Assembly (NCBI GenBank): GCA_946479475.1
Contig: CAMLGG010000071.1
Coordinates: 1-20,436 of the forward strand
Direction of reading: 5' to 3'
Source: an uncultured Ideonella sp.
GTDB taxonomy: Bacteria > Pseudomonadota > Gammaproteobacteria > Burkholderiales > Burkholderiaceae
DNA length: 20,436 nt
The notes below the pieces were generated by a model, which saw only the letters and a program-made list of their open reading frames with translations, ran no database searches and was not told where the DNA came from. Both the position numbers and the translations under genes were made by a program. Positions 851 through 19,581 of this stretch are shown piece after piece (position 1 is the first letter of the stretch; each line of letters starts with the position of its first letter).

Positions 851-1819
851 TCAATCCGCCGTGATGTGGCGCTCGCGGATGAGCCTGGCGTACCGCTGGC
901 GATCGTCCGCGATCAGCTGTGCGAACTCGCGAGGGGTCGTCGCGCGGGGGACGCCACCGAGCCCGACGAAGCGGGCCTTCACGGCCTCGTCCGCCAGCAC
1001 GCCGCGAACGTCGGCCGCGATCTTGTCGACAACCTCCGCGGGCGTGTTCGCCGGCGCGAGCAGGCCGATCCAGGAGATGGCGGTGAAGCCCGGCACGGCG
1101 CCTTCGGCCAGGCTGGGCACGTCGGGAAGCGCAGGCACGCGCTTGTCGCCGGTCACGGCGAGCGCGCGCAGCCGGCCGGACTTGATCTGGCCGCTGGCCT
1201 CGAGAACGGTCATGAACGAAAGCTGCACGTGGCCCGCGATGAGGTCGGATACCGCAGGGCCGCCGCCGCGGTAGGGCACGTGCAGGATGAAGGTGCCCGT
1301 TCGGTCCTTGAACAGCTCGGCCGCCAGGTGCGGCGCACCGCCGGCGCCCGAGCTGCTGTAGCTGAGCTGCCCGGGCTGGGCCTTGGCCAGCGCGATGAAC
1401 TCGGCCGCCGAACGGGCCGGCACGGCCGGGTTCACCATCATCGCCAGCGGCAGCTCGGCGACGAGCGTGACCGGCGCAAACGCGGTGTCCGGGTTGTACG
1501 CCAGCCGGGGATAGAGGCTCGGATTGATGGACTGCGTGCCGACGTTGCCCAGCAGCAGGGTGTAGCCGTCGGGCTTGGCCTTGGCGACCATGTCGGCGCC
1601 GATCTGGCCGGCTGCGCCGCCCTTGTTCTCGACGACGACGGTCTGCCCCCAACGCTTGCCCAGTTGCTCGGCGATGATGCGGGCGCCGGTGTCGGTGCCG
1701 CCGCCCGGCGGGAAGGGCACGACCAGGGTCACGGTCCGGTTCGGGAAGCCTTGCGCCAACGATGCCGCGGCGTGCAGCGACAAGGCCAGGGCCATGAATC
1801 TCGGCAGGAGTCGGGTCAT
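851..1819 (-). CDS. Bug-family (TctC-like) periplasmic solute receptor, copy 1
   Basis: A 322-residue secreted binding protein of the Bug family, the receptor component of tripartite tricarboxylate transporters. Residues 1-23 form a signal peptide ending near LAQG. The mature start FPNRTVTLVVPFPPGGGTD is the family hallmark ligand loop. Further hallmarks are VVENKGGAAGQIGA, KPDGYTLLLGN and HVPYRGGGPAVSDLIAGHVQ. Length is normal for the family. A GGAG ribosome site seven bases before the ATG lies inside the 3' end of the upstream receptor gene, only four bases away, so the two are one transcription unit. No TctA/TctB membrane genes are in the window, so it either works with a distant transporter or acts as a sensor receptor. 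The ligand is probably a carboxylate (family knowledge); the exact compound is unknown. Confidence 0.93.
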   Translation of the reverse strand: MTRLLPRFMALALSLHAAASLAQGFPNRTVTLVVPFPPGGGTDTGARIIAEQLGKRWGQTVVVENKGGAAGQIGADMVAKAKPDGYTLLLGNVGTQSINPSLYPRLAYNPDTAFAPVTLVAELPLAMMVNPAVPARSAAEFIALAKAQPGQLSYSSSGAGGAPHLAAELFKDRTGTFILHVPYRGGGPAVSDLIAGHVQLSFMTVLEASGQIKSGRLRALAVTGDKRVPALPDVPSLAEGAVPGFTAISWIGLLAPANTPAEVVDKIAADVRGVLADEAVKARFVGLGGVPRATTPREFAQLIADDRQRYARLIRERHITAD

Positions 1820-1823
1820 GGCA

Positions 1824-2792
1824 TCACTCCGGCTGGATGTTGGCGGCCCTGATGATCCGGCCCCAGCGTTCGTACTCGGCCTGCTGGAAGCGGCCGAGCT
1901 CTTCGGGCGTCGACAGGGCGACCTCCATGCCGTTCTGGTCGACGAATCGCTTCACCCCTTCCGACGCCATCGCGTGCCGGACCAGCTCGTTGAGGCGGTG
2001 CACGACGGCCCCGGGTGTGGCGGCCGGTGCGTAGAGCGCGTTCCAGTAGCTGGCCTCGTAGCCGGGCAGCCCCGATTCGGCCAGCGTCGGCACGCCCGGC
2101 ACGAGGCGCGAACGACTCGGGCTCGTCACCCCGAGCGCCCTGAGCTTGCCCGCCTTGACCTGCGGCAGGCTCGTCGTCAGGTCCACCGTCATCAGGTCGG
2201 TCTGGCCGGAAACGAGGTCGATGACCGCGGGCGGGTTGGCCTTGTAGGGCACGTGGTTCAGCTCGATGCCGGCCATCTGCTCGAGCAGCTCGGTCGCCAC
2301 GCGCGCCGAGGAACTGCCCTCGCCATAGTTGAGCCTGCCCGGCTCCTTGCGGGCCAGCGCGATCAGCTCCTGCACGCTGTTGGCCTTCACCGAAGGATTC
2401 ACGACCAGCAGCAGGTAGCCCTTGACCAGCAGCGAGACCGGTGCGAAGTCCTTCATCGGGTCGTAGGCGATCTTCCTGAAGAGGTGCGGGTTGGCGGCCT
2501 GGGTCGTGTTCGTGGTCATGAACAGCGTGTAGCCGTCGGGTGCCGAGCGGGCGACGGCCTGCGCCGCGATGCCGCCGGAGGCTCCCGCCTTGCTGTCGAC
2601 GATCACCGGCTGGCCGGTCTCGCGGGTGATCTCGGCGCCCATGGCCCGCGCCAGCCCATCGGTGGTGCTGCCCGGGCTCGAGCCGATGACGATGGTGATC
2701 GGCCTGGCGGGGTAGGCCTGGGCGTTGGCGGCCAGCGCCGAGCCGGCGCAAAGCACGGCGGCGAATGCCTGTCTCGCGATTCGTTCGAACAT
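1824..2792 (-). CDS. Bug-family (TctC-like) periplasmic solute receptor, copy 2
   Basis: A 322-residue receptor of the same family as its downstream neighbour but well diverged, so this is not a recent duplication. The signal peptide covers residues 1-25 (cleavage after ANAQA). The mature protein starts YPARPITIVIGSSPGSTTD. The ligand loop has SSPGS where the neighbour has PFPPGGG, which suggests a different ligand. Other family signatures are VIVDSKAGASGGIAAQ, APDGYTLFMTTN, HVPYKANPPAVIDLVSGQ and GVPTLAESG. A GGAG ribosome site sits five bases before the ATG. It lies 39 bases downstream of the dehydrogenase gene and 4 bases upstream of the second receptor, so it is the middle gene of a three-gene operon. 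Confidence 0.92.
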   Translation of the reverse strand: MFERIARQAFAAVLCAGSALAANAQAYPARPITIVIGSSPGSTTDGLARAMGAEITRETGQPVIVDSKAGASGGIAAQAVARSAPDGYTLFMTTNTTQAANPHLFRKIAYDPMKDFAPVSLLVKGYLLLVVNPSVKANSVQELIALARKEPGRLNYGEGSSSARVATELLEQMAGIELNHVPYKANPPAVIDLVSGQTDLMTVDLTTSLPQVKAGKLRALGVTSPSRSRLVPGVPTLAESGLPGYEASYWNALYAPAATPGAVVHRLNELVRHAMASEGVKRFVDQNGMEVALSTPEELGRFQQAEYERWGRIIRAANIQPE

Positions 2793-2831: not shown

Positions 2832-3785
2832 TCAGGTGGTCAGGCTCATCCGGGGTCGCTGGCCGGCCAGGGCCTGCGCCAGGCTGTCCAGGACCATGTC
2901 GGCCATGGCGGCCCGCGTCTCCCAGGTGGCGCTGGCGCGATGGGCCTGCAGCGTCACGCGATCGGACGAGCGCAAGGTCGGCGGGACGCGGGGCTCGTCG
3001 ACGAAGACGTCGAGGCCGGCCCCGGCGATGCGTCCCTGGGCCACCGCGGTCACCAGGTCGGGTTCGTTGACGAGCCGCCCGCGCGCCACGTTGACGAGGA
3101 AGCCTCGCGGACCGAGCGCTTCCAGCACACGCGCGTCGACGATGCCCTCGGCCTTGTCGGCGGCGGCACAGAGCACCAGCGCATCCGACTGGCGGGCGAG
3201 TTCAACGAGGTCGGCGTCGAAGCGGTAGGGCAGGTCGGGCATCGGCTTCAGGTCGGTGTAGGCGATGGCGCAACCGAAGGCGGCCGCACGCGTGGCGACG
3301 GCCCTTCCGACACGCCCCATCCCGACGATGCCCACCCGCATGCCGCTGAACCTGCGTGCCAGCGGTATCGCGCCGGGCTGGGGATGGAGCTCCCACTGGC
3401 CGTCCCTGACGAAGCGATCGCCGGCACACAGCCCGCGGCAGGCCGCGATCAGCAGGCCGAGCGCCAGGTCGGCGACGTCCTCGGTCAACGCGCCCAGCGT
3501 GGCCGTGACTGCAAGACCTCGCTCGCGGCAGTAGGCCAGGTCGACCGCATCGGTGCCGACGCCGTTGATGGCCACCACCTTCAGAGCAGGCAGGCGTTCG
3601 AGCATCGTGCGCGAGATGCCGGTGTGGCCGCCGGTGATCACCGCGTCGATGGCCTGCGCATTCGCGCGCATCCAGGCTTCGTGGTCGCTGATCTCGAACC
3701 ATCGGTGCACCTCGTAGAGCTGCGCCAGCCGTTCATTGGCCTGGGGGATGAGGATGGGGTTGAGCTGGAGGATCCGGGGCTTCAT
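2832..3785 (-). CDS. D-isomer-specific 2-hydroxyacid dehydrogenase (NAD(P)-dependent)
   Basis: A 317-residue cytoplasmic enzyme that interconverts a D-2-hydroxyacid and a 2-oxoacid. The Rossmann dinucleotide motif GMGRVG is at residues 155-160. The catalytic set is present: Arg235 in VARGRLVNE, Glu264 in VFVDEP, and His282 in LQAHRASAT, the acid-base His that pairs with the Glu. The N-terminal half has TGGHTGISRTMLERLPALKVV and the GVGTDAVDL turn typical of glyoxylate/hydroxypyruvate-reductase-like members. Asp178 (AYTDLK) at the end of the second Rossmann strand favours NADH (inference). It is the first gene of the operon with the two Bug receptors, suggesting that it acts on the acid they bind. 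No clear Shine-Dalgarno precedes the ATG; the predicted leader is only about 22 bases. Confidence 0.92.
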   Translation of the reverse strand: MKPRILQLNPILIPQANERLAQLYEVHRWFEISDHEAWMRANAQAIDAVITGGHTGISRTMLERLPALKVVAINGVGTDAVDLAYCRERGLAVTATLGALTEDVADLALGLLIAACRGLCAGDRFVRDGQWELHPQPGAIPLARRFSGMRVGIVGMGRVGRAVATRAAAFGCAIAYTDLKPMPDLPYRFDADLVELARQSDALVLCAAADKAEGIVDARVLEALGPRGFLVNVARGRLVNEPDLVTAVAQGRIAGAGLDVFVDEPRVPPTLRSSDRVTLQAHRASATWETRAAMADMVLDSLAQALAGQRPRMSLTT

Positions 3786-3814: not shown

Positions 3815-3858
3815 ATGCTAGATTTGCATTGACTGGACGGTCAATCTTGATCTACAAA
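3815..3858. promoter_or_regulatory. Divergent promoter pair centred on a 36-bp dyad
   Basis: Bases 3819-3854 form a dyad centred between 3836 and 3837: TAGAT, four unmatched bases, ATTGAC, six bases, GTCAAT, four bases, ATCTA. Twelve of 18 base pairs match. Both -35 boxes lie inside it. On the plus strand TTGACT (3829-3834) is followed after 18 bases by TACAAA (3853-3858). On the minus strand TTGACC (3844-3839) is followed after 18 bases by TAGCAT (3820-3815). The -35 boxes are four bases apart. A second inverted repeat, TTGAT-N7-ATCAA, lies at 3847-3863. One regulator bound here could control both directions. Confidence 0.6.
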
Positions 3859-3893
3859 ATCAACGTCACTGCCCACAGGATCGATTCCCTCCC

Positions 3894-5069
3894 ATGGCCA
3901 CTTGGATCTCGATGGAAGAGGCCTGCCGCCTGCTCGGCGTGCGCACCCAGACCCTCTACGCCTACGCCAGCCGCGGCAAGGTCGAGGTCGCGCCCGACCC
4001 GCAGGACAGCCGCCGCAGCCTTTACCGCGCGGAAGACGTGCGTGCGCTCGTCAAGCGCAAGCAGGACGGCCGCAAGCCGGCCACGCTGGCGAGCAACGCC
4101 ATGTTCGGCTCCGAGCCGAGCATCCCGACGGCGATCTGCACCTTCGTGCGCGGGCGCCCCTGCTACCGTGGGCAGGACGCGGTCGAGCTCGCGCAGTCGG
4201 CCACGTTGGAGGAGGTGACGCGCCTGCTGTGGAACACCGGGCAGCCGGTCCGGTTCGGTGCGGCCGAGGCCGCCGCAGTCGATCGGCAGCCCGGTCGCGT
4301 GAGCGCCTTCCGGCTGCTGGCCACCCTCGCGGCCACCGGCCATTCGACCCGCGGCCGCGTCGAGCGCGTGCTTCACGAAGAGGCCCAGGGCCTGGTCGGG
4401 CAGCTGGCCTGCGCCTTCGGCGCGTCGCGTCAGGCCGATTCGCCGCTGCACCTGAGGTTCGCCAAGGGCTGGGGCCTGAGCGTTCGGGCGGCCGAGCTGC
4501 TGCGCAGGGCGATGGTCCTGCTCGCCGACCATGAACTGACGAGCTCGGCCTTCACGACGCGCATCGCGGCGTCCACCGGCGCTTCGCTGCCGGCCTGCCT
4601 GCTCGCCGGCCTGGCGACCTTTTCCGGGCCCTTGCACGGCGACGCATCCGGGCGCGTGCGCTCGCTGCTGGAGGAGGTCGACCGGCTGGGGCACGACGTC
4701 GTGGTGGAGCGCTACCTCGCGGCGGGCCAGGCCATTCCCGGCTTCGGCCACCACCTGTATCCCGATGGCGACCCGCGCGCGGCGGCTCTTCTGGAGCACT
4801 TCGAGCCGCCCAGGGCCATCGATCAGTTCATGGCCCGGGTCGAGGCCCTGACGGGTCTGAAGCCGAACATCGACCTGGTGCTGGCGGCGATGGTGGCGCG
4901 CCACCGGCTTCAGGGGGATGCCGCCTTCGCCATGTTCGCCACGGCGCGAAGCACCGGCCTGATGGCGCACGCCATGGAGCAGCTCTCGGAGCCCCAGGTG
5001 ATCCGGCCGCGCGGCCGCTACACCGGCCCGGTGCCGCAGGGCACTCCGGCGGCCAGGGCGATTCGCTGA
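3894..5069 (+). CDS. Citrate synthase-like enzyme with N-terminal helix-turn-helix domain
   Basis: A 391-residue fusion protein. Residues 4-55 form a MerR/excisionase-type helix-turn-helix (MEEACRLLGV, QTLYAYASRGKV, then a wing with DSRRSLYRAEDV). Residues 75-391 form a citrate synthase fold. All three catalytic positions known from citrate synthase appear present: His213 in ADHELTSSAF, His286 in GFGHHLYPDGDPRA, and Asp327 in NIDLVL. The substrate loop GPLHGD (His249) replaces the usual HGGA. The C-terminal RPRGRYTGP supplies the usual Arg. It is therefore probably catalytically active as well as able to bind DNA (inference). The ATG has a weak AGGA 13 bases upstream. It is divergent from the dehydrogenase/Bug operon over a shared dyad, the arrangement of a local regulator and its target. 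Acceptor substrate (oxaloacetate or another 2-oxoacid) is unknown. Confidence 0.88.
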   Translation: MATWISMEEACRLLGVRTQTLYAYASRGKVEVAPDPQDSRRSLYRAEDVRALVKRKQDGRKPATLASNAMFGSEPSIPTAICTFVRGRPCYRGQDAVELAQSATLEEVTRLLWNTGQPVRFGAAEAAAVDRQPGRVSAFRLLATLAATGHSTRGRVERVLHEEAQGLVGQLACAFGASRQADSPLHLRFAKGWGLSVRAAELLRRAMVLLADHELTSSAFTTRIAASTGASLPACLLAGLATFSGPLHGDASGRVRSLLEEVDRLGHDVVVERYLAAGQAIPGFGHHLYPDGDPRAAALLEHFEPPRAIDQFMARVEALTGLKPNIDLVLAAMVARHRLQGDAAFAMFATARSTGLMAHAMEQLSEPQVIRPRGRYTGPVPQGTPAARAIR

Positions 5070-8244: not shown

Positions 8245-8814
8245 ATGAAGCGCTCTTCCATCCCCGCCAGCTGGCGCTACGTCGCCGCCGGCCTGGCGAT
8301 CTCGGCTGCCGGCGCCTTCGGCCTGATCGACCTGGCATCCGCCCACAGCCGGGCGGACATGCCTCCTGCCGGCAACTGGCGCGGCGGCCCCGGCATGGGC
8401 ATGGCCGGCGCCGGCCTGCCGCTGGGCGGCCCGATGCTCGACCGGCTGCTCGACGACGTGAAGGCCAGCGATGCCCAGCGCGACCAGCTGCACCGCATCG
8501 CCGAAGCCGCGCAGGCGGACCTGAAGCCGGCGGCCGAAGCGGCGCGCGCCGATCACGCCCGGATGGTGGAGCTGTTCGCTCAGCCCAGCGTGGACGCCGC
8601 CGCAGTCGAGGCGCTGCGCCAGAAGATGCTGGCCCGGCATGACCAGCTGACCAGGCGGGTCAACGTGGCGATGCTCGATGCCGCCAAGGTGCTCACGCCC
8701 GAGCAGCGCCAGGAGATGGCCGACCACATGCGGCAGATGGAGCAGCGCCGTGCCGAGCGGGGCGAGCGCGGCGGCCACGAAGCCCCTCCCGCCCCCGGCC
8801 CGGCGCCACGCTGA
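8245..8814 (+). CDS. Spy/CpxP-like periplasmic protein
   Basis: A 189-residue exported protein related to the Spy/CpxP family of periplasmic chaperones and stress sensors. A basic start plus hydrophobic segment (residues 10-33) forms the signal peptide, cleaved near ASAHS. Residues 36-64 are rich in Gly, Met and Pro (GGPGMGMAGAG), then residues 65-172 are nearly all helix with heptad-like spacing. The family LTxxQ motif appears as LTPEQR at 150-155. The tail is charged and Pro-rich. AAGG lies eight bases before the ATG. In known Cpx systems, CpxP restrains the sensor kinase and Spy protects envelope proteins; the adjacent regulator and kinase genes and the CpxR box upstream support that role here. 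Confidence 0.85.
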   Translation: MKRSSIPASWRYVAAGLAISAAGAFGLIDLASAHSRADMPPAGNWRGGPGMGMAGAGLPLGGPMLDRLLDDVKASDAQRDQLHRIAEAAQADLKPAAEAARADHARMVELFAQPSVDAAAVEALRQKMLARHDQLTRRVNVAMLDAAKVLTPEQRQEMADHMRQMEQRRAERGERGGHEAPPAPGPAPR

Positions 8815-8896
8815 CCAGGGGGCCGGCATGACGTATCCTTTGCTGATGGCCCGGGCCGCGCGATCCGTGCGCGAGAACCCCGGCGCCGCCGCCGAC

Positions 8897-9619
8897 ATGA
8901 CCCCCGCCAAGCTGCTGCTGATCGACGACGATTCCCGCCTGACCTCGATGGTCGGCGACTACCTCCGGGGCCATGGCTTCGAAGTCGACACCGCCGGCTC
9001 GCTCAACGCGGGCCGTGACCGGCTTCGCAGCGGCCTGTACGACGCGCTCGTGCTCGACCTGATGCTGCCCGACGGCGACGGGCTGGAGATGACCCGCGAG
9101 CTGCGAGGCGATCCGCGCACCCGCCGCCTGCCGCTGCTGATGCTCACCGCCCGCGGCGAGCCGATGGACCGGATCATCGGCCTGGAGATCGGTGCCGACG
9201 ACTACCTGCCCAAGCCCTTCGAGCCGCGCGAGCTGCTGGCCCGCATCAAGGCCCTGCTGCGGCGGGCGGCTCCCGAGCCGTCGAACGACGAGGTCCTGCG
9301 CTTCGGCCGCCTCGAGATCGACCTCGGCGCCCGCGAGGCCCGGCTGGACGGCAAGCGCTGCGACCTCACCGGCCACCAGTTCGAGCTGCTGACCGTGCTG
9401 GCCGGCAGCCCCGGCCGCGTGCTCAGCCGCGACCAGATCATGGACGCGCTCAAGGGCCACCCCATGGAGGCCTTCGACCGCTCGATCGACGTCCACGTCT
9501 CGCGCATCCGCGCGGTGATCGAGGACGACCCGAAGAACCCCAAGCGCGTGCTGACCGTGCGCGGCACCGGCTACGTGTTCGCACGCAAGCAGGACCAGGA
9601 GCCCACCGGCGAGGAGTAA
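8897..9619 (+). CDS. cpxR: OmpR/PhoB-family response regulator, CpxR-like
   Basis: A 240-residue two-component regulator. The receiver domain (residues 5-120) has the acidic pocket Asp10-Asp11-Asp12, phospho-acceptor Asp54 in LVLDLMLPDGDG, Thr84 in MLTAR and Lys106 in LPKPFEP. A winged-helix DNA-binding domain follows (about 140-233) with the usual LTGHQFELLTVLAGSPGRVLSRDQIM and RSIDVHVSRIR recognition helix, ending in VRGTGYVF. ATG 8897 is chosen because it sits just before the receiver's first strand. An in-frame ATG at 8828 with AGGGGG five bases upstream would add 23 residues and leave a 13-base gap after spy, so it is a serious alternative. The CpxR name rests on the neighbouring Spy/CpxP gene and CpxR box rather than on sequence alone. 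Confidence 0.88.
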   Translation: MTPAKLLLIDDDSRLTSMVGDYLRGHGFEVDTAGSLNAGRDRLRSGLYDALVLDLMLPDGDGLEMTRELRGDPRTRRLPLLMLTARGEPMDRIIGLEIGADDYLPKPFEPRELLARIKALLRRAAPEPSNDEVLRFGRLEIDLGAREARLDGKRCDLTGHQFELLTVLAGSPGRVLSRDQIMDALKGHPMEAFDRSIDVHVSRIRAVIEDDPKNPKRVLTVRGTGYVFARKQDQEPTGEE

Positions 9620-9628
9620 GGCGACCTT

Positions 9629-11239
9629 TTGAAGTCGCTCTACCTGCGTATCTGGCTGACCGTCGTGACGGCGCTGGCGCTTTTTGCGCTGGCGTCGGGC
9701 TGGCTGCTGAGCCGCCATCTGGAGCAGGAGCGGCAAAGGGCCGAGGCCCTGCTGACCGAGCGCATGGCCGCCTGGGGCGACCTGATCCAGAACTCCATTC
9801 CCGGCCCCGGCGCGACCGCCGAGGAGCAGACCGCCGCGCTGCGCGAGTGGTCGCGCCGGCTGCGGGTGCCGCTGGCCCTGCACGATGCCCAGGGCCAGCG
9901 CATTGGCGCCTCGGAGTCCTACCTGCGGCGCGAGGCCGAGGGTCCCGGAGGCCCGCGGCGGCCTTTCTCCATCCACCTCGAGGACGGCCGGACGCTGTGG
10001 CTGATGCGGCCCAACATCGTCCGCCTGCAGCGGCCCGAGCCGGGGGGCGAGGCCGCGGCCGCCGCCCCCGTGCCCGGCTCTGCCCCGGAGCGAGGCGGCG
10101 TCGCGCCCGGCTTCGGCGGCCCGCGCCCGTTCGAAGAGCGGCCGGAAGGCCCGGGCGTCGGCCCTCCCGGCTTGCCGCCCGGCCACTCGATGGGTCCCGA
10201 CCCGGGCGGGCCGCCGCCGGGGGGGCCAGGGCCCGATGTCGGTCACTCGCCCGAGGCAAGCCCCTTGTCCCTTTCCCTGCCCACCAAGCCGCCGGAGTGG
10301 CTGACCAGCCTGGGCCTGGTGGCGCTGCTGCTGCTGCTGTTCCTGGCCGTGGCGGGCGGCGCCTACCCGGTGGTGCGCCGCCTGACGCGGCGGCTGGAGC
10401 AGCTCAAGCGGGGCGTGGAGGCTTTCGGCGCCGGGGCGCTGGATCACCGCGTCAAGGCCGACGGCAAGGACGAAGTGGCGGCCGTGGCGGCGAGCTTCAA
10501 CCGCGCCGCCGAGCGGATCGAGGCCTTGGTCAAGTCCAACCAGAGCCTGCTGGCCAACGCGAGCCACGAGCTGCGTTCGCCTCTGGCCCGGCTGAAGATG
10601 GCGGTGGCCATGCTGGCCGATGCTCCGCCGGCCATGCTGGCTTCGCTGCGCCGCGAGATAGACACCAACATCGGCGAGCTCGACGCCCTGGTCGAAGAGG
10701 TGCTGCTGTCCAGCCGGCTCGACGCCGGGGCGGTGCACGACCTGGCCGAACCGGTGGACCTGGCCGGCGTGGTGGCCGAGGAGGCCGCGCGGGTCGGGGC
10801 CGAGCTGGCGGCCGGCCCGGAGGGTGCGAGCCTGCGGGTGAAGGGCAGCGAGAGGTTGCTGCGCCGCGCCGCGCGCAACCTGCTCGAGAACGCCCGCCGC
10901 TACGGCGGTGAGGACATCAGCGTCGAGCTCGTCGTCGAGGCGCGCGGCGCGGTGCAGCTGAGGGTGTCCGACCGGGGGCCGGGCGTGCCCCAGGCCGAGC
11001 GCGAGCGCATCTTCGAGCCCTTCTACCGCCTGCCCGGCCACGCCGAGCGGGAGGGCGGCGTCGGCCTCGGGCTCGCGCTGGTGCGGCAGATCGCCGCAGC
11101 CCACCAGGGCAGGGTCCATTGCGAGGCCCGCCCGGGCGGCGGCAGCGTGTTCGTGATCACGCTGCCGGCTGGCTCGCCGCCGGCCGCGCGGCCTGTCGCT
11201 GCAGCTCTTCGGCCTTCGCCTTCAGCACCAGGCGCATGA
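9629..11239 (+). CDS. cpxA: Sensor histidine kinase, CpxA-like, with Pro/Gly-rich periplasmic insert
   Basis: A 536-residue membrane kinase. TM1 is at about residues 8-27, and TM2 at about 226-247 (TSLGLVALLLLLFLAVAGGA). A HAMP linker follows (about 247-300). The phospho-acceptor is His313 in NASHELRSPLARLKM. The ATPase domain has Asn421 (NLLENARRY), DRGPGVP (448-454) and GVGLGLALVRQI (477-488). Between the membrane segments, residues 134-222 are largely Pro and Gly, with little other composition. The start is TTG, with AAGG seven bases upstream; the next Met (residue 46) would lose TM1. It starts nine bases after the regulator gene stops. Its last 83 bases overlap the 3' end of the convergent MATE gene. 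It should phosphorylate the adjacent regulator upon envelope stress. Confidence 0.87.
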   Translation: MKSLYLRIWLTVVTALALFALASGWLLSRHLEQERQRAEALLTERMAAWGDLIQNSIPGPGATAEEQTAALREWSRRLRVPLALHDAQGQRIGASESYLRREAEGPGGPRRPFSIHLEDGRTLWLMRPNIVRLQRPEPGGEAAAAAPVPGSAPERGGVAPGFGGPRPFEERPEGPGVGPPGLPPGHSMGPDPGGPPPGGPGPDVGHSPEASPLSLSLPTKPPEWLTSLGLVALLLLLFLAVAGGAYPVVRRLTRRLEQLKRGVEAFGAGALDHRVKADGKDEVAAVAASFNRAAERIEALVKSNQSLLANASHELRSPLARLKMAVAMLADAPPAMLASLRREIDTNIGELDALVEEVLLSSRLDAGAVHDLAEPVDLAGVVAEEAARVGAELAAGPEGASLRVKGSERLLRRAARNLLENARRYGGEDISVELVVEARGAVQLRVSDRGPGVPQAERERIFEPFYRLPGHAEREGGVGLGLALVRQIAAAHQGRVHCEARPGGGSVFVITLPAGSPPAARPVAAALRPSPSAPGA

Positions 11240-12596
11240 AGAGGGTGAGCGCCACGCCGGCCGCCACCAGCCCCGCCGTGGAGGCCGCCCAGAAGCCGGG
11301 CGCGCCCTGCAGCGCGGGCGGCGTGGCCCCGGTGAGGTTCAGGCCCAGTGTGTAGCCGCCGGCCAGGCCGATGCCCCAGAGCGAGCCGGCATAGATGAGC
11401 ATCGGCAGCGTCGCGATGCGCCAGGCGCGCAGAACGAAGGCTGCCACCGTCTGCAGTGCGTCGGCGAGGTGGAAGACGACGACCCAGGCCAGCAAGGGCA
11501 GGGCCGCGGCAGCCACCGCCGCGTCGCGCGTGTACAGCGCGATGATCGATTCGCGCTGCCCGAACACCACGACCCCCAGCACGCCGGCCAGCAACCCGCC
11601 CAGGAGCAACCCGTGCCAGCCCAGGCGCCGCGCATCGGCCAGGTCGCCGGCGCCGATGCGCTGCGCCACCAGCGTGCCGCTTGCGTTGGCCAAGCCCAGC
11701 GGCAGCATGAACATCAGCGAGACGATGTTGACGGCGATCTGGTGGCCGGCCACCGGCAGCGTGCCCAGGCGCGAGATCAGCAGCGCCATCATGCTGAAGC
11801 CGGTCACCTCGATCAGGATGGCGCCGCCCATGGGCACGCCCAGGCGCAGCAGGCCCCACAGCGCCTTCCGGTCGGGAGCATGCAGGCCATGTCCCCAGAA
11901 GCGGAAGGGCGCATAGAACGGGTCGCGTCTCATCAGCAGCCACGCCAGCAGCAACTGCACCCACAAGGCGACGGCCGTCGCCATGCCGGCGCCCGTGACG
12001 CCCATCTCCGGGATGCCCAGGGCGGGCACGCCGAAGACCAGCGCGATCGACAACGGCAGCTTGGCGACCAGGCCGCCGATCTGCAGCACCATCACGATCT
12101 TGGGCCGTGAAACCGCGGTGTTGAAGCCGCGGAAAGCCGTGAACAGCAGCGAAGCCGGCAGGGCCACCGCCAGGGCCTTGAGATAGCCGTGGACACGCTC
12201 GGCGATGTCCGGGCCGGCCTTGGCTATCCACAGGAAGGGCTGCGGGAAGAGCAGCAGCACCATGCCGATGACCGACAGGGCGAGCGAAAGCCACACGGCC
12301 TGGTGGAGCTCGTCGCCCGCCGCTTCGAGGCGCCCGGCGCCGAACAGCTGCCCGACGATGGGTGAGACCGCCAGCACGATGCCCATGAAGCCGACGAAGA
12401 CCGTCACGTAGGCCGCCGCGCCGACGGCGAAGGCGGCCAGGTCGGCCGGCGAGTGGCGGCCCACCAGCACCGTGTCGATGGTGTTGAAGGCCAGCACCGC
12501 CACCTGGCCGATGACCACCGGCCAGGCCAGCGGGGCGATGCGCCGCACGTCCTCGGCGAAGCCGTGCGCGCGGCCGGGCAGGGCGGGCGCCGTCAT
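11157..12596 (-). CDS. MATE-family multidrug/toxin exporter (NorM-like)
   Basis: A 479-residue inner-membrane antiporter with about twelve hydrophobic segments in two similar halves. Family signatures are LAWPVVIGQVAVLAFNTIDTVLVGRHSPADLAA at the N-terminus, VGQLFGAG in the first half, and LGVPMGGAILIEVTGFSMMALLISRLG with LANASGTLVAQRIGAGD in the second. MATE proteins exchange drugs or cationic metabolites for Na+ or H+; the substrate cannot be told here. The start ATG overlaps the TGA of the upstream DUF3717-DUF1289 gene by four bases, implying translational coupling. The C-terminal AASQPAA tail overlaps the kinase gene by 83 bases on the opposite strand. Confidence 0.94.
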   Translation of the reverse strand: MTAPALPGRAHGFAEDVRRIAPLAWPVVIGQVAVLAFNTIDTVLVGRHSPADLAAFAVGAAAYVTVFVGFMGIVLAVSPIVGQLFGAGRLEAAGDELHQAVWLSLALSVIGMVLLLFPQPFLWIAKAGPDIAERVHGYLKALAVALPASLLFTAFRGFNTAVSRPKIVMVLQIGGLVAKLPLSIALVFGVPALGIPEMGVTGAGMATAVALWVQLLLAWLLMRRDPFYAPFRFWGHGLHAPDRKALWGLLRLGVPMGGAILIEVTGFSMMALLISRLGTLPVAGHQIAVNIVSLMFMLPLGLANASGTLVAQRIGAGDLADARRLGWHGLLLGGLLAGVLGVVVFGQRESIIALYTRDAAVAAAALPLLAWVVVFHLADALQTVAAFVLRAWRIATLPMLIYAGSLWGIGLAGGYTLGLNLTGATPPALQGAPGFWAASTAGLVAAGVALTLFMRLVLKAKAEELQRQAARPAASQPAA

Positions 12597-14242: not shown

Positions 14243-15473
14243 ACAAGCTTCTCCCTCAGCCCGCCCGGCCTGGGGCTGGATCCTGCTGGCCGCCGCCGGC
14301 ACCTTCGCGCTGACGATGGGCGTTCGCCAGTCGATGGGGCTGTTCCTCGGGGCGCTGAATTCGGCCACCGCGCTGGGCCTGGCGAACATCAGCCTGGCCT
14401 TCGCGTTCGGCCAGCTCTGGTGGGGCCTGACCCAGCCGTTCGCGGGGGCCCTGGCGGACAAGCTTGGCGCGGGCCGCGTGCTCGTCGCAGGGGTCGCGCT
14501 CGTAGCGCTCGGAACGGTGCTGACGCCGTGGATGCACAGCACCGCGGGCCTCATCCTGGCCATCGGCGTGCTGGCGGCCGGCGGGGCCGGCATGGCCGGG
14601 CCGGCGGTGCTGATGGCGGCCGCCTCGCGCCTGATCCCGCCGGAGCGGCGCGGCCTGGCGACCGGCGTGGTGAATGCGGGCGGCTCGTTCGGCCAGTTCA
14701 TCATGGCCCCGATCGCCGGCGCGCTGACGCTGGGCCTGGGCTGGGACCACGCCATGCAGGTCATGGGCCTGCTGGTGCTGCTGGCGCTGCCCGCGGCGTG
14801 GGCCCTGCGCGGCAACTCCGCTCACGCGGCCGGGGCCGGCACGGCCAGGCCCGTAGGCACGCGCGAAGCCATCAGCCAGGCATTGCGCACGCCGAGCTAC
14901 CTGCTGCTCGCGGGCGGCTTTTTCGTCTGCGGCTTCCACGTGGCCTTCCTGGCGACGCACCTGCCCGGCGTGGTCGCCGCCTGCGGCCTGCCGCTTCAGT
15001 ACGGTGCGTGGGCCCTCGCGGTGCTGGGCCTGTTCAACATCGTCGGCAGCCTGGCCATGGGCTGGGCGGTGGGGCGCTGGCGCATGAAGTCGCTGCTGTC
15101 GCTGGTCTACGCCGCGCGCGGCGTCGCGGTGCTCGTCTTCCTGCTGGTGCCCAAGAGCGGCCTGGTCGTGCTCGTGTTCGCGGGCTTCATGGGCCTGACC
15201 TTCCTGTCGACCGTGCCGCCCACCGCCGGGCTGGTCGCCAAGTTCTTCGGCACAGGCAACATGGCCACGCTGTTCGGCGTGGTCATGCTTTCGCACCAGG
15301 TCGGCGGCTTCCTCGGGGCGTGGCTGGGCGGGCGGGTTTTCCAAAGCACGGGCAGCTACGACATCGTCTGGATCGTCGACATCGCGCTGGCCGTCGGCGC
15401 CGCGCTGATCCACCTGCCCATCCGCGAGGCGCCGCTTCGCCCCGCGACCTCGCTGGCCGGCGCTACCGCCTGA
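14235..15473 (+). CDS. MFS transporter
   Basis: A 412-residue inner-membrane carrier with about twelve membrane segments. The family features include GVRQSMGLFLGALNSATALGLANISLAFAFGQLWWGLTQPFAGALADKLGAGRVLV, where ADKLGAGR is the inter-helix 2/3 motif, and RRGLATGVVNAGGSFGQFI. In the second half come FNIVGSLAMGWAVGR and FGVVMLSHQVGGFLGAWLGG. It resembles CynX/oxalate-type and uncharacterised aromatic-acid carriers, but the substrate is not assignable. ATG 14235 lies inside the marR stop region (ATGACTGA), giving coupled translation. Its stop overlaps the convergent bufC-like gene's stop by 11 bases. Confidence 0.92.
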   Translation: MTEQASPSARPAWGWILLAAAGTFALTMGVRQSMGLFLGALNSATALGLANISLAFAFGQLWWGLTQPFAGALADKLGAGRVLVAGVALVALGTVLTPWMHSTAGLILAIGVLAAGGAGMAGPAVLMAAASRLIPPERRGLATGVVNAGGSFGQFIMAPIAGALTLGLGWDHAMQVMGLLVLLALPAAWALRGNSAHAAGAGTARPVGTREAISQALRTPSYLLLAGGFFVCGFHVAFLATHLPGVVAACGLPLQYGAWALAVLGLFNIVGSLAMGWAVGRWRMKSLLSLVYAARGVAVLVFLLVPKSGLVVLVFAGFMGLTFLSTVPPTAGLVAKFFGTGNMATLFGVVMLSHQVGGFLGAWLGGRVFQSTGSYDIVWIVDIALAVGAALIHLPIREAPLRPATSLAGATA

Positions 15474-16215
15474 CGAGCAGCCCGTCGTCGACCCAGCGGC
15501 GCATGGCGCTCGCCACCCAGGCAGGCGCCTCTTCGCCTCGGACGACGGTGGCCCGATCGCACAGCGCGAGGAAGGTCTCGCCGGCGAGGCAGTCGGCCAG
15601 GGCGGCCGATTCGTCGTCGTCCAGCGAGCGCCACCGCGTGTCCAGCCCCTGCCGCCACACGAGCAGGGTGTGCGGATGGGCTTGCGGCTCTTCGCTGCTG
15701 GCGTTCTCGTCGTCGGTCAGTGCTCGCCAGATTGGCTCGACGGCCCACTGCAAGGGCAGCAGCGTCACGGAAGGATGTGGCGCGAAGTGAGTGTCGGCCC
15801 ATTGCGACGGGGGCAGCGCGGCGAGGTCCTCGAAGCCGAGGGGCAAAGCGTCGGCGGCGTCGAAGCTCAGGCCCATTGCCCATTCCATCGCGGCCAGGTC
15901 GGCCAGCGCGGGATGGGGCAGGGCTTCGGCATGGCCGGCGGCCCACTCCGGCAGCCGGTCGCCGAACCACCGGATCGACGGGGTGCGGGAAGGGTGGTCC
16001 GCGAGGTAGCCGAGCGCGAGCTCGCGAAACCCGTCGTCGCCCAGGACACGATGCAGCACGGGGTAGTTGCTGCGCAGCGCCTCGACAAGGCGTGCGCGGT
16101 AGGCGTGGTGGTAGACATCGAGGCGCGCCGGCGCCGCCAGCAAGCCGGATGGCGCGGCGGCATCGCAGCCGTCCAGCAGCGCCGCGAAGGCCCGTTGCCG
16201 GGCGATGAGGTTCAA
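15463..16215 (-). CDS. bufC: BufC-like DUF2063 protein (MNIO partner)
   Basis: A 250-residue protein with the DUF2063 'putative DNA-binding' domain at about residues 1-95: [14 protein letters not shown], then [62 protein letters not shown]. In bufferin and related RiPP systems this domain recruits the precursor to the DUF692 (MNIO) enzyme rather than binding DNA (family knowledge). The start is TTG at 16215, with GGAGG seven bases upstream. It overlaps the bufB stop as TTGA, so translation is coupled. The longer frame to 16380 lies over bufB and is rejected. Confidence 0.9.
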
Positions 16216-17057
16216 GGCGCGACCTCCAGGGCGAGGGCGGCCTCGGCTTCGCGGCGGGCACGGCCCAGCTCCGCGACCAGCTCGGCCAGCGGCGGGATGT
16301 GGTCGTCGCGCTCGATCATCGTCGGCACCGGCCCGAAGCGGGCGACGGTGTGACGGTAGAGCGCCCAGACCGCTTCGCACACGGGGTGGTCATGGGTGTC
16401 GACGAGCAAGCCGTCTTCGTTCGCCTCGTGACCGGCGAGATGGATCTGGCGCACGCGCTCGCCCGGCATCGCATCGATGAATCTGCGCGGGTCGAAGCCG
16501 TGGTTGCTCGCGCTGACATAGACGTTGTTGACGTCGAGCAGCAATTCGCAGTCGGCGCGGCGGGCGAGCTCGGCGAGGAATTCCCACTCGGCCATCTCGT
16601 CGGCTGCCCAGCGCACGTAACTCGATACGTTCTCGAGCACGAGCCGCCGGCCCAGCAGGTCCTGCACGCGCATCACGCGCGTGGCGACGTGGCCGAGGGC
16701 CTCTTCCGTGTAGGGCAGCGGCAGCAGATCGTGCCGGTTGGATCCGTCGACGCCGGTCCAGCACAGGTGATCGGAGATCCACGCGGGCTCGATGCGGTCC
16801 GCCAGGGCCTTGAGCTCGCGCAGGTAGCCCAGGTCCAGCGGATCCGTGCCGCCTATCGACATCGACACGCCGTGCATCACCATCGGACAGTCTCGCCGGA
16901 TCGCGTCCAGGTGCGCCAGCGGCTTGCCGCCGGGCACCAGGTAGTTCTCGCTGATGACCTCGAGCCAGTCCACGCCGAGCCTTCGCGCCGGCGTGGCCCG
17001 AAAGTCGGCGTAGTGGTCGGTCCGCAGGCCGAGGCCGAAGCCAAGCAACTTGTTCAT
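16212..17057 (-). CDS. bufB: BufB-like MNIO-family iron oxidase (DUF692)
   Basis: A 281-residue TIM-barrel enzyme of the multinuclear non-heme iron oxidase family that modifies cysteines in a precursor peptide. From the ATG at 17057, conserved metal ligands and neighbours appear in order: GFGLGLR, VISENYL (Glu37), [11 protein letters not shown] (His62), ISDHLCW (His97), [17 protein letters not shown] (Glu142), [18 protein letters not shown] (Asp175, Asn178, His186), QIHLAGHE (His206), DTHDHPV and MIERDDHIP (Glu249). This is a full set, so it should be active. ATG 17093 would add 12 residues but has no ribosome site; GGAG lies 14 bases before 17057, so neither start is certain. It lies between the precursor gene and bufC on the minus strand. 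Confidence 0.92.
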
Positions 17058-17107
17058 GGCGTTGGCGCGGCGCTCCAAAGGAGCCGCCGCCATTCAAGGG
17101 CGTGCGC

Positions 17108-18239: not shown

Positions 18240-19364
18240 TCACCAGCTCGCCCGCCCCAGTCCCATCACTCGCCGGTACCACTCGTGGAAGTGACGCATG
18301 CCGTCTTCCATCGGGCTCTGGTAGGGCCCGGCCTCGTCGTCGCCGCGGTCGAACAGGGCCTTGCGGCCGGCGTCCATCCGCTCGGCGATCTCGTCGTCCT
18401 CGATGCACGTCTCCATGTAGGCCGCGCGCTGGGCCTGCACGAACTCGCGTTCGAAGGCGGCGATCTCCTCCGGGTAGTAGAACTCGACGACGTTGAGCGT
18501 CTTCTGCGGGCCTTGCGGGTACAGCGTGGACACGGTCAGCACGTGCGGGTACCACTCGATCATGATGTTCGGGTAGTACGTGAGCCAGATCGCGCCTTGC
18601 CGGGGCGCGCGGCCCTCGCCGAGCTTGAGCACCTCGTCCTGCAGGCGGCGGTAGGTGGGTGAGCCCGCGCGCTCCAGGCCGTTGTGCACGCCGACCGTCT
18701 GCACGGAGTAGTGCTTGCCGAACTCCCAGCGCAGGTCGTCACAGGTGACGAAGTTGCCGAGGCCCGGGTGGAAGGGGCCGACGTGATAGTCCTCGAGGTA
18801 GACCTCGATGAAGGTCTTCCAGTTGTAGTCGCACTCGTGCATCTCGACGTGGTCGAGCACGTAGCCCGAGAAGTCGAGCTCGGCGCGGGGGCCGAGGTGC
18901 GCCAGGTCGGCCGCGATGTCGCGCCCGTTGTCCTCGAAGACCAGGCCGTTCCAGGTCCGCACCTTGTAGTTGTTCAGGTGCAGGCAGGGGTCCTGCCTGA
19001 AGTGCGGCGCCCCGATCAATTGGCCCGACAGGTCGTACGTCCAGCGGTGCAGCGGGCAGACGATGTTCGAGCGGGTGTGGCCGCGCCCGCGCAGCATCAC
19101 CGCCTGTCGGTGACGGCACACGTTCGAGACGAGCTCCACGCCCTTTCGGGTGCGCACGAGGGCTCTGCCCTCGCCCTCCTGTGGCAGCGCGTAGTAATCG
19201 CCTACCTCGGGCACGGACAGCTCATGCGCGAGGTAGCGCGGTCCGTGCTGGAAGATGAGTTCCTGCTCCCTGCGGAGCAAGCCCTCATCGAAGTAGGTGG
19301 AGACAGAGAGTTGAGAGCGCGTCGTGCGCTCCAGAGCTTCCAGCGTGATGCTCAGGTCCGACAT
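18240..19364 (-). CDS. Rieske-type ring-hydroxylating oxygenase alpha subunit
   Basis: A 374-residue mononuclear iron oxygenase. The Rieske [2Fe-2S] ligands are Cys83 and His85 (NVCRHRQAVM) and Cys103 and His106 (VCPLHRWTYD). The catalytic domain has NWKTFIEVYLEDYHVGPFHPGL (181-202), with Asp192 bridging the domains and His194 and His199 binding the iron. These features indicate an active oxygenase working with a separate reductase; none is in the window. The substrate (aromatic, choline-like or demethylation) is unknown. ATG 19364 is chosen because the family N-terminus starts there; the upstream extension to 19538 looks non-coding. A candidate -10, TACAAT, is at 19473-19468 on the minus strand. 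Confidence 0.9.
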   Translation of the reverse strand: MSDLSITLEALERTTRSQLSVSTYFDEGLLRREQELIFQHGPRYLAHELSVPEVGDYYALPQEGEGRALVRTRKGVELVSNVCRHRQAVMLRGRGHTRSNIVCPLHRWTYDLSGQLIGAPHFRQDPCLHLNNYKVRTWNGLVFEDNGRDIAADLAHLGPRAELDFSGYVLDHVEMHECDYNWKTFIEVYLEDYHVGPFHPGLGNFVTCDDLRWEFGKHYSVQTVGVHNGLERAGSPTYRRLQDEVLKLGEGRAPRQGAIWLTYYPNIMIEWYPHVLTVSTLYPQGPQKTLNVVEFYYPEEIAAFEREFVQAQRAAYMETCIEDDEIAERMDAGRKALFDRGDDEAGPYQSPMEDGMRHFHEWYRRVMGLGRASW

Positions 19365-19430
19365 GATCCCCAGGATCTCCTGCAAACCCCCCACCCGGTG
19401 GCCCCGCGGATGGGTTTTCGACAAATGAAA

Positions 19431-19461
19431 CCCCGCTGGATCCGGTGGGATGCCAGCGGGG
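19431..19461 (-). promoter_or_regulatory. Leader hairpin at predicted transcript start of the Rieske gene
   Basis: CCCCGCTGG (19431-19439) and CCAGCGGGG (19453-19461) are a perfect 9-bp inverted repeat with a 13-base loop. A minus-strand TACAAT -10 (19473-19468) predicts a transcript starting near 19461, so the stem would be the first thing transcribed. On that strand the stem is followed by TTTCATTTG, a poor U-tract. Confidence 0.4.
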
Positions 19462-19581
19462 GCCGCTATTGTAGCCGGGCCTTGTAGGTTCCAGGCCACG
19501 TTCCTGCCCGCCTCGAGCAGGATTTGCGTCCATTTCATGACATTGCCAGCGGTTACCGGGTAAACGTGAGCTGTCGCTGAC

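Follow-up and report, generated by a model that had tools for sequence, protein, structure and literature searches.

A helix-turn-helix protein with a citrate synthase fold, a predicted regulator of a divergent hydroxyacid dehydrogenase operon in Ideonella, and the DNA dyad that accompanies its gene

Why should a protein with a citrate synthase domain begin with a DNA-binding helix-turn-helix (HTH), and why should its gene stand back to back with genes for a D-2-hydroxyacid dehydrogenase (HDH) and two carboxylate receptors? The question is raised by a 20,436-base stretch of DNA from an uncultured Ideonella sp. (assembly GCA_946479475.1, contig CAMLGG010000071.1, positions 1 to 20,436), the whole of which is called the window here. 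An earlier note, made from the letters alone, had pointed to this HTH-citrate synthase fusion (HTH-CS) and proposed that it is an active metabolic enzyme controlling the facing operon. The sequence comparisons reported here make it probable that HTH-CS is a one-component regulator with a sensor of the citrate synthase fold, which would bind a predicted DNA dyad and control both its own gene and the HDH-Bug-Bug operon. A gene switch for these two units is proposed because the same unusual DNA site lies beside most relatives of the gene, even in distant bacteria.

HTH-CS matches the Pfam family Citrate_synt (PF00285) with 171.8 bits, above the cut-off, which places its larger part in the citrate synthase superfamily fold. 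The N-terminus scores 25.8 bits against HTH_17, slightly below the cut-off of 27, and gives no match to MerR_1 at E 0.001; among six distant HTH-CS relatives scanned, four pass HTH_17 and two pass MerR_1. AlphaFold2, supplied with an alignment of 109 sequences, folds residues 1-50 into a winged helix (helices 7-14 and 18-26, strands 32-35 and 38-45) with a predicted local distance difference test (pLDDT) score of 92-97. The models are of a single chain, and an earlier one built from 22 close relatives reached a pLDDT of 63.9 with a poor N-terminus. The HTH is credible despite its sub-threshold score because four of the six relatives pass HTH_17 and because AlphaFold2 yields a winged helix; the fusion described in the earlier note is thus borne out. 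The recognition-helix segment YAYxSRG is near-invariant among relatives. The protein has the architecture of a one-component regulator, a DNA-binding domain fused to a sensor domain, if the citrate synthase part is taken as the sensor.

The window protein falls below the cut-off of every NCBIfam citrate synthase model, the best scores being 122.4 bits (cut-off 550) and 122.2 bits (cut-off 332). An ordinary duplicate citrate synthase was rejected on account of these scores, the winged helix and the candidate operator. Three protein searches at E 0.001 returned 5077, 7896 and 5287 matches (the best 120 listed for each), totals that may include enzymes without an HTH. The 5077 matches came from 7999 scored candidates, and the best 120 are all at least 66% identical; in a separate search, at least a fifth of the matches listed cover residues 68-391 only.

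The genes facing HTH-CS lie on the minus strand, as the earlier note had it. HDH and the two receptors of the Bug/TctC type are separated by 39 and 4 bases, gaps that fit a single operon, and the solved relatives of HDH include hydroxyphenylpyruvate and glyoxylate/hydroxypyruvate reductases. A scan of bacterial genomes found 246 HTH-CS relatives, of which the best 80 loci, nearly all from Burkholderiales, were kept. HDH was found by tblastn in 77 of the 80, which dismisses a chance gene neighbour and upholds, across genomes, the layout of a regulator and its target that the earlier note had recognised in a single locus. In 76 loci HDH is encoded on the other strand, no more than 3.5 kb upstream of HTH-CS (median identity 79%); L046 falls outside this rule owing to an open reading frame (ORF) called too long. 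The same tblastn search over the 80 loci found HDH missing in L003 and L060, which are contig ends, and in L058, where the absence is real. Further genes stand between HTH-CS and HDH in L067, L073, L075 and L077.

Bug receptors occur in 76 of the 80 loci, a raw count that carries no background rate for these genomes. In a first ORF clustering, nine of 81 loci, window included, have the HDH-Bug-Bug run, and other loci add a short-chain dehydrogenase/reductase (SDR; 46/81) and a fumarylacetoacetate-hydrolase (FAH)-family gene (31/81), neither of which is in the window; this clustering undercounted HDH (71/81), which overlapping ORFs hid, and both the gene runs and the partner labels on the tree described below share its errors. 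Plasmid copies of HTH-CS in Caballeronia, Thioclava and Paraburkholderia (46-51% identity) face HDH together with a major facilitator superfamily (MFS) carrier. That a non-homologous carrier, MFS, can take the place of Bug next to the same HDH agrees with the earlier proposal that these genes may serve the uptake and oxidation of a hydroxyacid.

The intergenic region between the divergent genes contains a specific, conserved dyad, which goes with the HTH-CS gene from genome to genome. The core dyad of the window ends 30 bases ahead of the HTH-CS start codon, and the -35 hexamer predicted for the HDH promoter shares bases with the accessory dyad; occupancy of the site is therefore expected to influence HTH-CS and HDH. 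The -10 region of that promoter, CATggTA, is conserved within the upstream footprint. The intergenic segment 3815-3858, named in the earlier note as the DNA to be bound, indeed holds most of the candidate operator, which extends to 3863. An aligned element consisting of TTGAY, a 6-base spacer and GtCAA, followed by TTGAY-N7-ATCAA, is present in 79 of 81 upstream regions; its half-site columns carry 0.9-2.0 bits and the accessory-dyad spacer 0-0.4 bits. TTGAY-N7-RTCAA occurs at most 200 bp upstream of the HTH-CS start in 78 of 81 loci (the 80 loci and the window, with starts placed by tblastn), as against one of 1063 control stretches taken upstream of other genes there. As for the three loci without a dyad in these 200 bp, the sequence of L060 begins within the gene, and in L074 and L078 the dyad is located further upstream. 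The 1.28 Mb of the 81 loci contain 82 dyads, 79 of them between -350 and +90 of the HTH-CS ORF start. In L081, an Agrobacterium plasmid, the annotated HTH-CS start is probably too early, since the operator dyad lies inside the annotated N-terminus (L081:4887-4990).

The association extends to whole genomes. In 24 genomes picked from the 80 loci, the pattern AANNTTGAYN7ATCAA has 40 matches, comprising 24 at HTH-CS (one per genome), three just upstream of HTH-CS paralogs (G003, G022 and G023) and 13 elsewhere; the reversed pattern has three. In an even draw of 249 Pseudomonadota genomes (HTH-CS cut-off E ≤1e-50, at most seven candidates scored per genome), 28 have an HTH-CS match, and TCAANNTTGAYN7ATCAA stands at the HTH-CS gene in 22 of the 28 and elsewhere in one. 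The looser TTGA-N9-TCAA precedes the gene in 23 of these 28 loci and was seen once elsewhere in those loci of about 4 kb; by a strict count (at most 200 bp), the dyad accompanies 22 of 27 drawn loci and three of six paralogs. It is also found beside Alphaproteobacterial relatives of 42-46% identity and beside six of seven plasmid relatives of 42-57% identity. The seventh, L082 from a Burkholderia multivorans plasmid, has HTH-CS at the end of an SDR-MFS-VOC operon, and the start of this gene lacks a dyad. A dyad that marks target promoters would be expected here between HDH and SDR, the first gene of the operon; two copies are present there (at 2098 and 2263).

Several observations weigh against a sensor that acts through this dyad. 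Close copies also conserve the core-dyad spacer (nTATAAA, with 1.1-1.8 bits at the positions following the first base), and the footprint may therefore include some promoter sequence; among distant relatives the spacer varies. TCAANNTTGAYN7ATCAA also occurs in 25 of the 221 drawn genomes without an HTH-CS match, compared with three of 249 for the reversed pattern. The exact dyad is absent in five of the 27 drawn copies (L124 and L139-L142): L124, L139, L140 and L142 have no dyad within the searched span, and L141 has one with a 6-base spacer. The catalytic triad of citrate synthases shows no exception in the alignment of 109 nearer relatives, and a pure sensor would not strictly need it.

Some of the 25 background genomes may hold sites of weaker or unrecognised HTH-CS relatives. 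L146 and L147 have related but different half-sites, as judged by eye. The recognition helix is changed in L142, and L124, L139, L140, L141 and L146 keep YAYVSRG, so this helix alone does not explain the loss of the dyad.

Alignment to solved citrate synthases places the triad at His248 (GPLHGDA), His286 (GFGHHLY) and Asp327 (PNID), residues that we take to have the catalytic roles; His213 is a further active-site position, presumably equivalent to the oxaloacetate-binding His229 of the Escherichia coli enzyme. The earlier note was right that His213, His286 and Asp327 are kept, although the triad itself has His248 and not His213. All four are found in 81 of 81 close copies, and in 34 (His213), 33 (His248), 36 (His286) and 33 (Asp327) of 40 distant ones. 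None of the 121 HTH-CS sequences has lost any of the substrate arginines Arg295, Arg352 and Arg371. Residue 290, at a position assumed to contact the CoA phosphates in citrate synthases, is Pro in 113 of the 121 (80/81 close and 33/40 distant copies). The equivalent residue is Lys or Arg in the two nearest solved type II enzymes (Mycobacterium tuberculosis CitA, PDB 8gll, and the Thermotoga maritima citrate synthase, 2p2w), where it belongs to a GHRVYK or GHRVYR stretch, and in all 21 copies of CS2, a companion citrate synthase considered below; the window protein, with Pro290, lacks this basic residue of an active citrate synthase. Residue 292 is Gly in 118 of 121 HTH-CS and Arg in 21 of 21 CS2. 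The residue counts come from one alignment of 81 close and 40 distant sequences, the most distant rows of which are possibly misaligned.

The binding of the carboxylate thus appears to be under stronger constraint than that of CoA. With the arginines invariant and the basic residue of the presumed CoA site replaced by Pro, the pattern suits a ligand sensor better than a functioning citrate synthase. A trigger enzyme, in which a catalytically active synthase of citrate, 2-methylcitrate or a related product has operator binding as a second function and lets its own substrate flux set expression, is unlikely but retains a real chance: the triad, invariant among the nearer relatives, is what such an enzyme would keep. 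Against it, residues 290 and 292 depart from their state in CS2, and His248 and Asp327 are each missing in seven of 40 distant copies (allowing for misaligned rows) and the three arginines in none. The active metabolic enzyme of the earlier note is, on these residues, not supported.

The tree of the family bears on a second alternative. When 70 of the 121 sequences were placed in a tree, every HDH-labelled copy grouped on the same side of one branch (34 rows, support 100/95), and within that side the transporter differs, being either Bug or MFS. Outside this clade the usual divergent partner is the second citrate synthase CS2, which is divergent from HTH-CS in 18 of 27 drawn relatives: 17 were found by tblastn within about 115 bases (52-59% identity to the CS2 of L085), and that of L121 by a hidden Markov model. 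In L131 and L132 a more distant citrate synthase is found at about 1 kb, and three of the most distant copies (L141, L146 and L148) face a Bug gene. CS2 belongs to the NCBIfam PRK12350 (NF009005) subfamily, in the same superfamily as HTH-CS; two CS2 scanned score 435 and 452 bits against the PRK12350 cut-off of 332 and have no HTH match, whereas three HTH-CS score 122-162 bits.

HTH-CS might accordingly be mainly a regulatory subunit of CS2, with DNA binding for autoregulation only, the partner lost in the clade of the window and HDH incidental. Besides the frequency of CS2 as divergent neighbour, L058 keeps its dyad in the absence of HDH, which fits autoregulation. However, HDH accompanies almost every close copy and also the sister lineages that have another transporter, and the dyads of L082 lie between HDH and the first gene of the operon, far from the start of the regulator, which leaves this alternative very improbable. 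In the distant loci L116-L138, HTH-CS and a PRK12350-type citrate synthase often diverge from a common intergenic region that contains the dyad. All 21 CS2 have Glu at the position of the catalytic Asp.

Least probable of the alternatives is that the dyad belongs to another regulator or is a promoter element, the HTH binding elsewhere or nowhere: the overlap with the predicted promoter hexamer, the conserved core spacer and the background matches in genomes without a strong HTH-CS match are in its favour, but the site accompanies the HTH-CS family in different orders and stands next to some of its paralogs, it occurs in the region of the HDH promoter even where the HTH-CS gene has another position (L082), and the other genes of the loci lack it.

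For HTH-CS as a one-component regulator, the features of Table 1 suggest the following mechanism. A citrate synthase dimer would present two winged-helix domains to the core dyad, helped by the accessory dyad, and from this position between its own gene and the HDH-Bug-Bug operon could control both. A carboxylic ligand would sit in the retained oxaloacetate-type site formed by Arg295, Arg352, Arg371, His213, His248, His286 and Asp327. Citrate synthases are dimers that close on their ligand, so the presence of a ligand could be passed on to the HTH pair in a simple way: it probably alters how far the citrate synthase domains close and how far apart the two HTHs stand, so that DNA binding may be either released or reshaped. 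A small carboxylate connected with HDH, of the 2-oxo or hydroxy type, is the probable ligand. The most likely candidate, a guess from the retained residues and the neighbouring genes, is the 2-oxoacid made by HDH or its hydroxyacid precursor.

Table 1. Positions of the regulator gene, its candidate operator and its predicted target genes in the window
Feature	Coordinates	Strand	Basis
HTH-citrate synthase fusion (HTH-CS), proposed regulator	3894..5069	+	ORF, 391 aa
N-terminal winged helix-turn-helix, residues 4-55	3903..4058	+	Pfam, relatives, AlphaFold2
Citrate synthase fold, residues 71-391	4104..5066	+	Alignment to solved enzymes, AlphaFold2
Core operator dyad TTGAT-N7-ATCAA (candidate)	3847..3863	.	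Sole TTGAY-N7-RTCAA in the 20436-base window
Accessory dyad TTGAC-N6-GTCAA, adjoining the core dyad	3829..3844	.	Upstream footprint
Predicted sigma-70-type promoter of the HDH operon	3815..3844	-	1 found vs mean 0.1 in shuffles
D-2-hydroxyacid dehydrogenase (HDH), predicted target	2832..3785	-	Pfam; related to glyoxylate/hydroxypyruvate reductases
Bug/TctC tripartite tricarboxylate receptor 1, predicted target	1824..2792	-	Pfam
Bug/TctC receptor 2, predicted target	851..1819	-	Pfam

No description of an HTH-citrate synthase protein was found in the open-licence full text of PubMed Central. BirA, PutA and NadR are trigger enzymes or enzyme-derived regulators in which a DNA-binding domain is fused to a metabolite-reading enzyme fold. 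HTH-CS resembles this class in its fusion and differs in having the citrate synthase fold as its proposed sensor, for which we know of no precedent in the class. From its nearest type II citrate synthases (8gll and 2p2w) it differs by the added winged helix.

A citrate synthase with a regulatory role independent of its enzyme activity is known in Caulobacter crescentus, namely CitA (PMC7083601). CitA, as is proposed for HTH-CS, is a citrate synthase recruited for regulation; its role is in the cell cycle, and the portion of that paper available to us reports no HTH. According to the same portion (PMC7083601), the CitA paralogs citB and citC have consecutive locus tags (CCNA_03758 is CitC), and complementation of an E. 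coli gltA mutant succeeds with CitB and fails with CitC. The citB-citC genes could be a CS2/HTH-CS pair.

If HTH-CS is a regulator, many proteins that carry no other name than "citrate synthase", "citrate synthase family protein" or "citrate/2-methylcitrate synthase" would in fact regulate genes, and a fold of central metabolism would gain the role of a transcriptional sensor. The DNA site would be predictable, so that targets could be read from sequence, and orphan Bug receptors and hydroxyacid dehydrogenases would be linked to a regulon. A wider reading, which we consider distinctly unlikely as a whole, is that of a widespread, undescribed family of transcription factors with a citrate synthase sensor, the older target of which was perhaps the second citrate synthase; one mainly Burkholderiales clade would have been rewired to hydroxyacid uptake and oxidation with the DNA site unchanged. 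In its boldest form, HTH-CS would still condense, as an operator-bound enzyme gauging flux by turning over its own signal.

Elsewhere in the window, a minus-strand gene (16212-17093) encodes a modifying enzyme of ribosomally synthesized and post-translationally modified peptides (RiPPs) from the MbnB/TglH/ChrH family (373 bits); the adjacent ORF (15356-16261, minus strand) has no Pfam match, and together they are possibly a small peptide-modification cluster. The alpha subunit of a Rieske ring-hydroxylating oxygenase (18240-19538, minus strand) is encoded about 1 kb from the RiPP enzyme. On the plus strand, an OmpR-type response regulator (8678-9619) is paired with a HAMP histidine kinase (9629-11239), and the last bases of this pair are overlapped by a MatE transporter ORF on the opposite strand (11157-12596).
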